NCBI GenBank assembly: GCA_944325585.1
Contig: CALVAS010000009.1
Span: forward strand, 1-42,339
Reading direction: 5' to 3'
Source: Candidatus Gastranaerophilales bacterium
GTDB taxonomy: Bacteria; Cyanobacteriota; Vampirovibrionia; Gastranaerophilales; Gastranaerophilaceae
DNA length: 42,339 nucleotides
The notes beneath the pieces are model-generated. The model worked only from the letters and a program-made list of their open reading frames with translations, made no database searches and was not told where the DNA came from. Of the stretch, positions 7,080 through 34,939 are shown in pieces; the stretch's first letter is position 1; each line of letters begins with the position of its first letter. Made by a program: the position numbers and the translations under genes.

Positions 7080-7916
7080 CTAGCTTCCAACTAACCGGAG
7101 AGCTTCTTCCAAAAGCTCTTTGTTTGTTGAAATAAGTTTGTTTGAAATTTCCATCTGTAGTTTTGCCATCTGGAAATAAGAAATATTACCTTTAAAATCA
7201 GCGTTTGACATTTCTAAGAGACCTGAACGTATTTGACCTGAACCCAAAACAGGTTTGCCTGAGGCTTCCGTTTCAATAAAGTAGCCTTCTTTAACTTCAT
7301 AAAGAGCCGCTGCATTATGGAAATTTCGCGTTGTTATTCTATACAAAGGAATAGTACGTTTTCCGCCATCAGCTTTTCCGTAAATAGTTCCGTCTTCTTT
7401 TATTTCATAATCGTCATATTTTCCGAGATATTTGCCGTTGCTCGGGTCAATCCACATCTTGATATTTGTTGTCGGAATGTCAAGCGAACCGCCTTTCAAC
7501 GCAGTCTGCTCGTACAAATCCTGCGAAACAGACTTGGTACCCTGCATAATTTCACCCTTATCATTCAGGATATAGCCTTGCACAGTATTACCGTTCTTTG
7601 CTCGATAAACTCCTTCACCGTCAAAAGTAAATTCACCCAATCTTGTATAAACACTTTTGCCTTCAGGAGTTTTGGTCAGGAAAAAGCCCTTGCCTTCTAA
7701 AAATAAATTATCTTGAGAAGTACCGGGGGTTGATTTGCCCTGTCCCGTTTTTTTATCATAGTCGTCAGCAATTGCGCCGCCCAAAAAGGTTTTAAAATTC
7801 ACCTGTTGTTCCCTGAAACCGGGTGTATAAATATTTGTCATGTTATGCGCAATGACATCCATCCAGTTCTGGGTCGATTTTTGGGTATTTAAGGCTGTAA
7901 CGTATGAATCATTCAT
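7080..7916 (-). CDS. Flagellar hook/basal-body protein (FlgE/FlgG family)
   Basis: Axial flagellar protein exported through the type III gate. The N-terminus has the family pattern 'ALNTQKSTQNWMDVIAHNMTNIYTPGF' (usual form: ...NNLANxxTxGFK). The middle has 'FLEGKGFF', 'YTRLGEFTFDGEG' and 'NGNTVQGY'. The C-terminus has 'GSGQIRSGLLEMSNAD', close to the usual leading part of the C-terminal D0 helix. At 278 residues it is the size of FlgG or of the short FlgE of Gram-positives, far shorter than E. coli FlgE. Following fliJ and fliK suggests it is the hook protein, because in Bacillus fliK is followed by flgD and flgE. No FlgD is seen here. The start overlaps the end of fliK by 8 bases and has AAGGAG upstream. 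Confidence 0.85.
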   Translation of the reverse strand: MNDSYVTALNTQKSTQNWMDVIAHNMTNIYTPGFREQQVNFKTFLGGAIADDYDKKTGQGKSTPGTSQDNLFLEGKGFFLTKTPEGKSVYTRLGEFTFDGEGVYRAKNGNTVQGYILNDKGEIMQGTKSVSQDLYEQTALKGGSLDIPTTNIKMWIDPSNGKYLGKYDDYEIKEDGTIYGKADGGKRTIPLYRITTRNFHNAAALYEVKEGYFIETEASGKPVLGSGQIRSGLLEMSNADFKGNISYFQMAKLQMEISNKLISTNKELLEEALRLVGS

Positions 7917-17476: not shown

Positions 17477-18268
17477 TTACCAAGGGTAATCCGGTTTAAT
17501 TTGCCAACCGTCACCAATAATTTTTGCAGAACAGTAACGTCCGTTTCCATTTTTACTGCAGCTGGCAGCAATTTCCACGGGCGTTTTATCATACCCATAA
17601 GGCAGAATACCTTTAGCACTCTTTTCCGATGTTTTTGAAAACATAAACACATCACGCCCTATGCGGTTAGGATTTTTACCACCGTTGACATCGACAATAA
17701 TCCAATCGGCTTCATTCGCTATACCTTCCGGATTATATCCCGCTGTAATAATCAATACAAGAACACCATCCGGCAGATAAAAAGCTGTTCTTGCCGGAGC
17801 TGCAACTACTGAAAAATCAAACTTTGTATTATTCAACTGTGTCCAGGGCTGAGAGATATTAAAGCCACAGTCTTTATATGTCTTGCAAACATGAACAACA
17901 TTTAAATATGGTTTCCAGTATTCGTTAAAATAGTTTTCAGCCCCTATATCAAAACCTGACGGCCAATACTTGTAATCTTCATGATCTACTTCCGAACGTT
18001 CAAGAGCCTGATTGAGTGTTGTATAAACCTTTTGAAGTTTTGAAACAGTTACCTGTTTCTGGTATTTGCCGATTAGCGACGGCAGCGTCATCGCCGCAAC
18101 TATTCCGATTATGCCGAGTGTTATAAGAACCTCTGCCATGGTAAAGGCGGCTTTGCGGCTAGATTTGTCATTTTGGACACCTGAGGTGAGGATGTTTTTA
18201 TCAGCATTGATAGATTCTGAGTCAAGCTCAGAATGACATGATAGATGCACATGCGACGGCTTTGTCAT
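17477..18268 (-). CDS. Type IV prepilin-like protein A, probably phase variable (true start 18410, out of frame here)
   Basis: The mature part is a class of pseudopilin: cleavage is expected before Phe in 'KAA|FTMAEVLITLGIIG', with Glu at position +5 and a hydrophobic helix up to 'AMTLPSLIG'. A globular C-terminal domain of about 180 residues with paired cysteines follows. The -1 residue is Ala, not the usual Gly. The in-frame ATG at 18268 lies inside repeat DNA. The frame stays open upstream to a poly-G tract at 18370-18381. The only start with a good ribosome binding site (AAGGAG, ATG 18410) is on the other side of that tract and is out of frame at 12 G; 11 or 14 G would join them and give a leader of about 88 residues. 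I infer an OFF state, not a dead gene. Confidence 0.8.
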   Translation of the reverse strand: MTKPSHVHLSCHSELDSESINADKNILTSGVQNDKSSRKAAFTMAEVLITLGIIGIVAAMTLPSLIGKYQKQVTVSKLQKVYTTLNQALERSEVDHEDYKYWPSGFDIGAENYFNEYWKPYLNVVHVCKTYKDCGFNISQPWTQLNNTKFDFSVVAAPARTAFYLPDGVLVLIITAGYNPEGIANEADWIIVDVNGGKNPNRIGRDVFMFSKTSEKSAKGILPYGYDKTPVEIAASCSKNGNGRYCSAKIIGDGWQIKPDYPW

Positions 18269-18330
18269 TCCGGCCTCCGAGCCGGAATCTATTTCTTTAT
18301 TTAGAGATTCTGAATCAAGTTCAGGATGAC
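18212..18330. repeat. Three palindromic REP-like repeats inside the prepilin A leader
   Basis: Three short inverted repeats of similar design lie in a row. 18212-18237 has ATTCTGAG and CTCAGAAT arms. 18263-18290 has ATTCCGGC and GCCGGAAT arms. 18305-18330 has ATTCTGAA and TTCAGGAT arms. They belong to the widespread intergenic 'GTCATTCTGA' type palindromes. Here they are in the pilin reading frame, encoding 'HPELDSES', 'EIDSGSEAG' and 'CHSELDSES' without a stop. Confidence 0.75.
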
Positions 18331-18359
18331 CAATTGTTAAATTGTAATCAGGAGCCGTT

Positions 18360-18410
18360 TTACAGGTTGCCCCCCCCCCCCTGAAACTCAGTCATATCAA
18401 TAGTTTCCAT
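18360..18410 (-). other. Prepilin A 5' leader frame, stopped after the poly-G tract
   Basis: ATG 18410 has AAGGAG 9 bases upstream and reads METIDMTEFQ, four Gly codons or part codons, then N-L and TAA at 18362-18360. With one G fewer the frame runs on as G-G-G-A-T-C-K-T-A-P-D into the pilin. Confidence 0.75.
18370..18381 (-). repeat. Poly-G tract (12 G on the coding strand) in prepilin A
   Basis: A run of 12 G, beginning with the third base of codon 10, in a genome region that is otherwise AT rich. Long mononucleotide runs change length by slipped-strand mispairing. At 12 the ATG and the pilin are in different frames; at 11 or 14 they are in the same frame. Confidence 0.85.
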
Positions 18411-18443
18411 ACTTTTAAGCTCCTTATAATATCATTATTGTTT

Positions 18444-18472
18444 ATTATATCATATTATTATTTAGACTTCAA
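18444..18472 (-). promoter_or_regulatory. Sigma-70 promoter of prepilin A
   Basis: TTGAAG (18472-18467), a 17-base spacer and TATAAT (18449-18444) on the minus strand. The -35 overlaps the last codons of the APC permease gene. The predicted RNA start is about 25 bases before ATG 18410. Confidence 0.75.
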
Positions 18473-34070: not shown

Positions 34071-34826
34071 TTATTTTGAATGCATTTGTTCAATCATTTG
34101 ATTAGTAGTAAGCCCTCCTTTTTCGGCAAGTGAACAAAATAATCCGTCAAGAGTTAGGAATGTTTCTCCTGAATTAATCGTTGTAGTAAACACGAATACA
34201 TCATATCCCCATTTGTTGGGGCCTTTTTTCCCGTTTATATCCACTGTAAACATGGCAAAGTTGTTACTGCTGTAAGGTATTAGTATAACCCCGTTTTTTA
34301 AAACATAAACAATGCTCCCATTTAATAATTCATTTTTTCGCAAACCTGAACAACCGCCTGACTGATTATATGCATCTTCGTCACTCATATCTGTATCACT
34401 GTTTGCCTGCAAAACTGTATCATAACCTTCATAATCAGGAATACAGCCTTTTTGGAAAGCATTACCTTCACAAATTGTAATAACTTGAAGATTTTGCCTG
34501 ATTTTATCTGTAAATAAGTTACATTCATTGAATCTGCCAAACAAATCGTCAGGTACAGGACTTCCATCAGGCAAAGTATACTTTTTACACTTTCCATTAT
34601 CGTCATATTCTACACAAACTCTGCTATAACGTGCCTTTTTCCAGTAATAACATTCAGGAATATATCCTAAATCAGCCCCGATTTTCCCCCAGGCTTGCTG
34701 AATCAATGAATAAGCAACTTTAAACTGTTCTTTTAAAACTTTTTTTTGATAACGTCCAATTAACGAAGGTAAAGTCATTGCAGCAACTATACCGATTATG
34801 CCTAAAGTAATCAAAACTTCTGCCAT
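34071..34826 (-). CDS. Type IV prepilin-like protein B, probably phase variable (true start 34939, out of frame here)
   Basis: Paralogue of prepilin A. From 34826 the frame begins 'MAEVLITLGIIGIVAAMTLP', which is already the mature pilin helix. The codons before it read 'KEFISA|FTMAEV', so cleavage before Phe needs an upstream start. The pilin frame is open back to the poly-G tract at 34904-34917. On the far side ATG 34939 has AAGGAGG 5 bases upstream and a promoter, but at 14 G it is out of frame. With 15 or 12 G the frames join, giving a leader of about 36 residues. The mature protein is about 250 residues with several Cys, including 'CSGLRKNELL' and 'NLFTDKIRQN'. It probably belongs to the same pilus or pseudopilus as prepilin A. 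Confidence 0.85.
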   Translation of the reverse strand: MAEVLITLGIIGIVAAMTLPSLIGRYQKKVLKEQFKVAYSLIQQAWGKIGADLGYIPECYYWKKARYSRVCVEYDDNGKCKKYTLPDGSPVPDDLFGRFNECNLFTDKIRQNLQVITICEGNAFQKGCIPDYEGYDTVLQANSDTDMSDEDAYNQSGGCSGLRKNELLNGSIVYVLKNGVILIPYSSNNFAMFTVDINGKKGPNKWGYDVFVFTTTINSGETFLTLDGLFCSLAEKGGLTTNQMIEQMHSK

Positions 34827-34900
34827 TGTGAATGCTGAAATAAATTCCTTATAATTTGTGATTAAAGAAGGAAAAACCCTCTCAGGAACTGCTTTACGGG

Positions 34901-34939
34901 TTACCCCCCCCCCCCCCGAATTTCAAGTATAGTCTGCAT
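34901..34939 (-). other. Prepilin B 5' leader frame, stopped after the poly-G tract
   Basis: ATG 34939 reads MQTILEIR, four Gly codons and TAA at 34903-34901. One more G would turn the stop into Val and continue as V-T-R-K-A-V-P-E into the pilin. Confidence 0.75.
34904..34917 (-). repeat. Poly-G tract (14 G on the coding strand) in prepilin B
   Basis: A run of 14 G right after codon 7, in AT-rich DNA. It is the longest mononucleotide run in the window, in the same place relative to the pilin as the tract in prepilin A. Confidence 0.85.

Follow-up and report, generated by a model that had tools for sequence, protein, structure and literature searches.

The DNA analysed here, a contig of 42,339 nucleotides from a Candidatus Gastranaerophilales bacterium (hereafter the window), carries on its reverse strand a gene, prepilin A, with the N-terminal cleavage and methylation motif of type IV prepilins, recognised by both Pfam and TIGR profiles (PF07963, N_methyl, E 1.3e-4, and TIGR02532, each above its cut-off). 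The start signals of the gene are set apart from its prepilin frame by a homopolymer: behind the ATG at 18410 lie 29 nt (nine codons and two bases), then a tract of 12 G, and the frame opened by the start codon closes soon after the tract (Table 1), leaving a mini-ORF within the range of 12-21 codons that is typical across the G-tract leader family. Direct reading of the sequence bears out the coordinates given in an initial annotation of this DNA (ATG 18410, 12 G, TAA 18362-18360, a pilin frame reaching 17477), as well as its statement that 11 or 14 G would fuse the start frame with the pilin frame. The promoter proposed there, TTGAAG-N17-TATAAT, is present at 18472-18444 and is the best candidate of the region, but promoter-like sites around prepilin A are no more numerous than in shuffled sequence (4 against 3.3 by chance). 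A chance G run can be rejected, as the window holds 12 overlapping matches to 8-G runs where 0.15 are expected.

Table 1. Coordinates of the features of prepilins A and B in the window
Feature	Position	Strand	Basis
Prepilin A putative promoter, sigma-70-like TTGAAG-N17-TATAAT with TG before the second hexamer	18444..18472	-	consensus match only
Prepilin A Shine-Dalgarno AAGGAG	18420..18425	-	direct reading
Prepilin A default frame, 16-codon mini-ORF METIDMTEFQGGGGNL, stop TAA 18362-18360	18360..18410	-	direct reading
Prepilin A G12 tract, ON lengths 11 or 14	18370..18381	-	direct reading
Post-tract GGCTCCT, complementary to the prepilin A Shine-Dalgarno	18350..18356	-	centroid structure
Two in-frame copies of the dispersed GTCATYCTGARCTTGAYTCAGAATCT repeat, between tract and prepilin signal	18212..18330	-	
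Prepilin A reading frame, tract to stop 17479-17477, prepilin signal FTMAEVLITLGIIG from 18145	17477..18370	-	PF07963 above cut-off
Prepilin A variable pilin body, unrelated body at the syntenic G041 locus	17477..18071	-	
Prepilin B leader: ATG 34939, G14 tract 34917-34904, start-frame stop TAA 34903-34901, ON lengths 12 or 15	34901..34939	-	
Prepilin B reading frame, tract to stop (FTMAEVLITLGIIGIVAAMTLPSLI)	34071..34904	-	

The window contains a second gene of this kind, prepilin B, which gave no Pfam match at E 0.01 and whose FTMAEVLITLGIIG signal was recognised by eye. Genes for FlhB (1070-2167), a flagellar protein of the FlgE/F/G family (7080-7916) and a PilT-family ATPase, a component of the type IV pilus machinery (12835-11708), also lie within the window, and the organism thus possesses both flagellar and type IV pilus genes.

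Prepilin A is no isolated oddity; G-tract prepilins are a genus-wide arrangement. The source genome (1.76 Mb in 105 contigs) has some 50 prepilins in all and about 39 runs of at least 8 G, nearly all of which fall 20-40 nt after prepilin starts. Most of these runs share one leader order, namely AAGGAGCT, ATG, 20-40 nt, 10-14 G, a start-frame stop, CTCCT and the prepilin frame, while the dozen or more prepilins that lack a tract have leaders of the usual kind, short and in frame (e.g. MKKSA before FTMAEV). A pattern search of 117 genomes of the order recovered the leader in eight of the ten sampled genomes of the same genus and, outside the genus, in five genomes with one or two matches each; the reversed pattern, used as a control, had zero matches. 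The named contigs that bear the leader belong to uncultured Candidatus Gastranaerophilales or Melainabacteria. Within the genus tracts occur in 13 of 14 genomes, with up to 63 runs of at least 10 G per genome, and G078 alone has no run of that length. Tract length is confined tightly to 10-14 G: a search for exactly 7 G, serving as a short-tract control, returned two matches only, of which one proved to be a 12-base tract with an interruption.

Many contigs of the source genome terminate about 100 nt or less from a G tract (C7, C17, C45, C59, C68, C71, C73 and C89 among them), which indicates that the tracts break assemblies and that the pilin genes are probably undercounted. At five loci of G110 (L384, L395, L420, L422 and L428) the G-tract leader is not followed by a long pilin frame; these are perhaps decayed or truncated members of the family. 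The tracts are also found beyond the pilins. Four acyltransferase-3 (OafA-like) genes of the genus (L445, L446, L447 and L456) have 5' tracts of 13, 9, 10 and 14 G, those of 13 and 10 G being in frame (ON) and those of 9 and 14 G OFF, and these are likely to be further phase-variable surface-modification genes.

The frame state of the family was scored at tracts with a Shine-Dalgarno and a start codon by comparing the start frame with the pilin frame, and the scored loci include samples picked without any condition on their flanks. With tract lengths taken as consensus calls from genomes that appear to be metagenome assemblies, and start codons assigned by a simple Shine-Dalgarno rule, 122 of 159 distinct loci (77%) need a +1 shift, equivalent to one G fewer, to join the two frames; 20 are in frame and 17 need the other shift. 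This bias is present in every well-sampled genome and over unrelated leaders, and in G110 the +1 class accounts for 27 of 31 scored prepilins with a single one in frame. Since loci within one genome are related, the fair test is the one over leaders clustered by sequence, in which the +1 class holds the majority in 16 of 23 clusters (p = 5e-4 against 1/3). The number of Gs compensates for the length of the leader: leaders of 2 mod 3 mostly have 12 G, those of 1 mod 3 mostly 13 and those of 0 mod 3 mostly 11. In the MALLLNF leader family both the leader frame and the pilin frame differ from those of the main family, yet the loci rest one G above ON in five cases out of five. A random frame at mutational equilibrium is rejected by the compensation for leader length and by a class common to 16 of the 23 clusters. 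The stop codons give a signal that is independent of the counted Gs. In the +1 class the default frame meets a stop within six codons past the tract at 94% of loci (87% at cluster level), compared with 10% (39%) for the other closed frame and a chance expectation of roughly one third, the underlying stop probability being approximate.

A further element lies downstream of the tract. In the predicted centroid structure of prepilin A, the AGGAGCT at 18424-18418 can pair with the GGCTCCT at 18356-18350. Across the family CTCCT is found within 45 nt past the tract at 76% of loci versus 5% in a control stretch, and its spread over all three pilin phases (42, 37 and 32) means that it is conserved as nucleotides and not as protein. 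The predicted pairing energy with the Shine-Dalgarno peaks 10-30 nt past the tract, and native pairs outperform swapped ones (p < 5e-5 for 136 loci, p = 0.0016 in a diverse subset). The swap test is not significant in the subset without CTCCT (p = 0.18), and the overall fold of prepilin A is no better than shuffles, though its centroid is the Shine-Dalgarno helix; on both counts the helix was rejected as the sole explanation of the arrangement. Our guess is that it may serve to hide the Shine-Dalgarno until the leader has been translated.

The out-of-frame pilins are under strong purifying selection. The median dN/dS of the pilin bodies is 0.21 over 125 pairs and 0.19 where both members belong to the +1 class, and from these low values it follows that the out-of-frame genes are alive. 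Tract lengths differ between relatives: related pilins of different genomes occur in different frame states (L001 in frame and L194 in the +1 class, L067 in the +1 class and L167 in frame), and G117 has near-identical leaders with 11 and 12 G. The prepilin A locus is syntenic in G041, a related species, where the flanking genes are 87-88% identical and the 5' portion of the pilin gene agrees at 97% over 399 nt; the G041 tract has 13 G compared with 12 G in the source genome, and an unrelated pilin body takes the place of the one at about 18071-17477 (L259, L261). Tract and body thus both vary at one fixed locus. The breakpoint of this body swap lies in the conserved N-terminal helix. Among copies with identical 38-nt flanks, 47 of 49 pairs have equal tract lengths, which shows that the lengths are not drifting freely.

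Exchange and insertion also mark the neighbourhood of the tract in other genomes. In G049 there are 53 pairs with near-identical leaders, many of them joined to unrelated pilin bodies, and these leaders (L207-L219) are nearly identical between unrelated bodies and differ between species; about 70 nt around the tract are subject to concerted evolution in some genomes, G049 being an example. Most tract-bearing pilins of G041 have long GTCATYCTGARCTTGAYTCAGAATCT-type inserts between the tract and the prepilin signal (L158-L183). Palindromic elements have inserted into reading frames in Rickettsia, and the in-frame GTCATYCTGARCTTGAYTCAGAATCT repeats can be likened to these.

Poly-G and poly-C genes of Neisseria and Campylobacter resemble the tracts described here, being surface-related genes with long homopolymers and frame-dependent ON and OFF states. 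The mycoplasma vlhA genes are likewise a large paralog family in which most members are OFF at a time and repeat length sets the state, but their repeat is a different one, control is exerted at the level of the promoter, and their OFF lengths are scattered, whereas those of the G-tract prepilins cluster one G above ON. To our knowledge there is no other genus with dozens of pilin paralogs that share both the position of the tract and its out-of-frame class, and a literature search for Gastranaerophilales together with phase variation gave no paper. A published precedent comes from the pili of Bifidobacterium breve, in which the reference tracts of bbr_0113 and bbr_1889 are G11 and G10 and the ON states are G10 and G9 (PMC9187656). 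Mixed tract lengths occur within one B. breve culture, the wild type is devoid of pili and in-frame mutants are piliated, and the ON fraction reaches up to 30% in mice (PMC9187656). The similarities extend to the details: B. breve too is a gut commensal with a G10-G12 tract early in the pilin gene, a short upstream ORF that supplies the start codon and Shine-Dalgarno, a pilin ORF without start signals of its own, and a reference length one G above ON from which the loss of one G turns the gene ON (PMC9187656). Unlike the system analysed here, B. breve is Gram-positive and has sortase-dependent pili at one or two loci per genome (PMC9187656). The Gastranaerophilales tracts, which are known from assembled sequence, concern type IV-type prepilins with up to dozens of loci per genome and a shared leader with an anti-Shine-Dalgarno element.

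We consider it probable that prepilin A is phase-variable, with the tract as its switch and a resting state that is OFF, exactly one G above ON. The gene has a homopolymer in its coding sequence whose length decides the frame, the mark of a phase-variable gene, and the tracts of the acyltransferase-3 genes, a class of surface-modification enzymes, fit a surface-gene switch as well. Ribosomes would start at ATG 18410 and, with 12 G, stop 16 codons on without making pilin, the default frame being closed by the stop codon just behind the tract. A replication slip from 12 to 11 G would join the start to the pilin frame, and selection would keep the loci one G above ON so that a single-G loss switches the gene on. 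Such slips would be expected at a high rate in cells, with the loss of one G as the commonest event, and ON cells would display the pilin. Prepilin A would then be one member of a genus-wide bank of switchable prepilin genes.

The ON/OFF switching by slipped-strand mispairing that the initial annotation put forward has the best support, from the length differences between orthologs and leaders, the reading through the tract and the B. breve precedent; simple random switching does not match the genomes, in which one OFF state makes up 77% of loci. The same annotation had named one fixed out-of-frame length in related genomes as evidence against switching. The data come close to this, with 77% in one class and 47 of 49 pairs equal, but the length is not fixed. 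Two differing pairs in 49 are fewer than an unconstrained hot spot should give, unless the length is reset by selection, and with 1 of 31 prepilins of G110 in frame a consensus cell would make almost no pilin of the family. Phase variation alone leaves the preference for one OFF frame and the Shine-Dalgarno pairing element unexplained. That one out-of-frame class is held leads to two possibilities: either selection keeps the loci OFF and next to ON, or recoding allows pilin to be made from the out-of-frame state itself.

Programmed recoding, in which the out-of-frame state is the working state, a slip of RNA polymerase (one G fewer) or a +1 ribosomal shift on GGG codons yields a fixed small share of pilin and the in-frame copies are mutants, strikes us as the less likely of the two, although it is the most direct account of one out-of-frame state nearly everywhere. 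It accommodates a +1 class held over 13 genomes and unrelated leaders (122 of 159 loci), with the in-frame and other classes as the rarer states on either side, a stop that follows the tract closely in the default frame alone, pilins constrained like others while out of frame, and a tract length of 10-14 from which 7-G tracts are practically absent. GGG codons may moreover be read slowly, since no tRNA-Gly with a CCC anticodon was found in the source genome, but this assembly is 96% complete and the gene may simply be missing data. An expanded-anticodon tRNA reading GGGG has no support, as the glycine tRNAs of the incomplete assembly (TCC and GCC) are ordinary calls. In common with prfB, dnaX, IS elements and Shigella mxiE, the prepilins have a short zero frame, a conserved candidate shift window, a stop behind it and a downstream frame under selection; prfB, however, has a fixed spacing of internal Shine-Dalgarno, shift codon and stop, and the Gastranaerophilales family has no fixed stop spacing and includes in-frame copies. 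A prfB-like shift at the stop is rejected, the distance from tract to stop ranging from 3 to about 19 nt. Recoding is also at odds with interrupted tracts that lie out of frame (L129 with G4AG7, L149 with G3AAG5) and with tracts of the same kind that are in frame in some acyltransferase genes. Wagner (1990) reportedly saw slippage in E. coli on A and T runs and not on G runs. Most slippage sites described in bacteria consist of A or T (PMC3711429, PMC1088944), and B. breve at G11, out of frame by the same step, has no visible pili, in contrast to its piliated in-frame mutants (PMC9187656), which speaks, for B. breve at least, against efficient recoding at a run of this length. It is in our view similarly doubtful that recoding operates throughout the genus, with dozens of prepilins per genome kept one base off, slippage on 11-13 G metering the pilin and an RNA helix that hides the Shine-Dalgarno forming part of the control.

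An artefact of assembly, whereby the true tracts are in frame and consensus calling has added one G, is improbable. Sequencing through G runs is difficult; in B. breve the reference itself differs by one from the majority, and the authors of that study warn that consensus tract lengths can be off by one (PMC9187656). Of the two closed frames, however, it is the one read at one G above ON that carries the immediate stop, and the counted length has no bearing on this signal; the bias recurs in assemblies of different origin, and 10, 11, 12 and 13 G have all been called in frame at other loci. Least probable of all is an independent start of the pilin, either behind the tract or at a TTG or CTG just before it, that would make the mini-ORF a mere regulatory leader peptide. 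Prepilin A does have an ATG 3' of the tract, at 18268, and the main leader family has an NTG in the pilin frame just before it. The idea is refuted for several members: in L053/L062 and L044 the stretch from the tract to the signal peptide is free of ATG, GTG and TTG, so that these pilins must be read through the tract, L062 has a pilin-frame stop directly ahead of the tract, and an NTG at that place is absent from the MALLLNF family. Nor is a Shine-Dalgarno placed for such a start.

The best reading of the analysis is that the G-tract prepilin switch follows the kind published for B. breve, on an unusually large scale. Were recoding the correct account, the tracts would represent a natural role for slippage on G runs that is new for bacteria. 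If the loci are indeed poised OFF beside ON, dozens of surface proteins would have had their starts annotated wrongly or lost by gene callers, and an uncultured gut lineage of non-photosynthetic cyanobacterial relatives would hold a very large bank of pilin switches. The one-G offset, which recurs in the pili of B. breve, suggests that homopolymer switches may in general be designed to rest one unit above ON.
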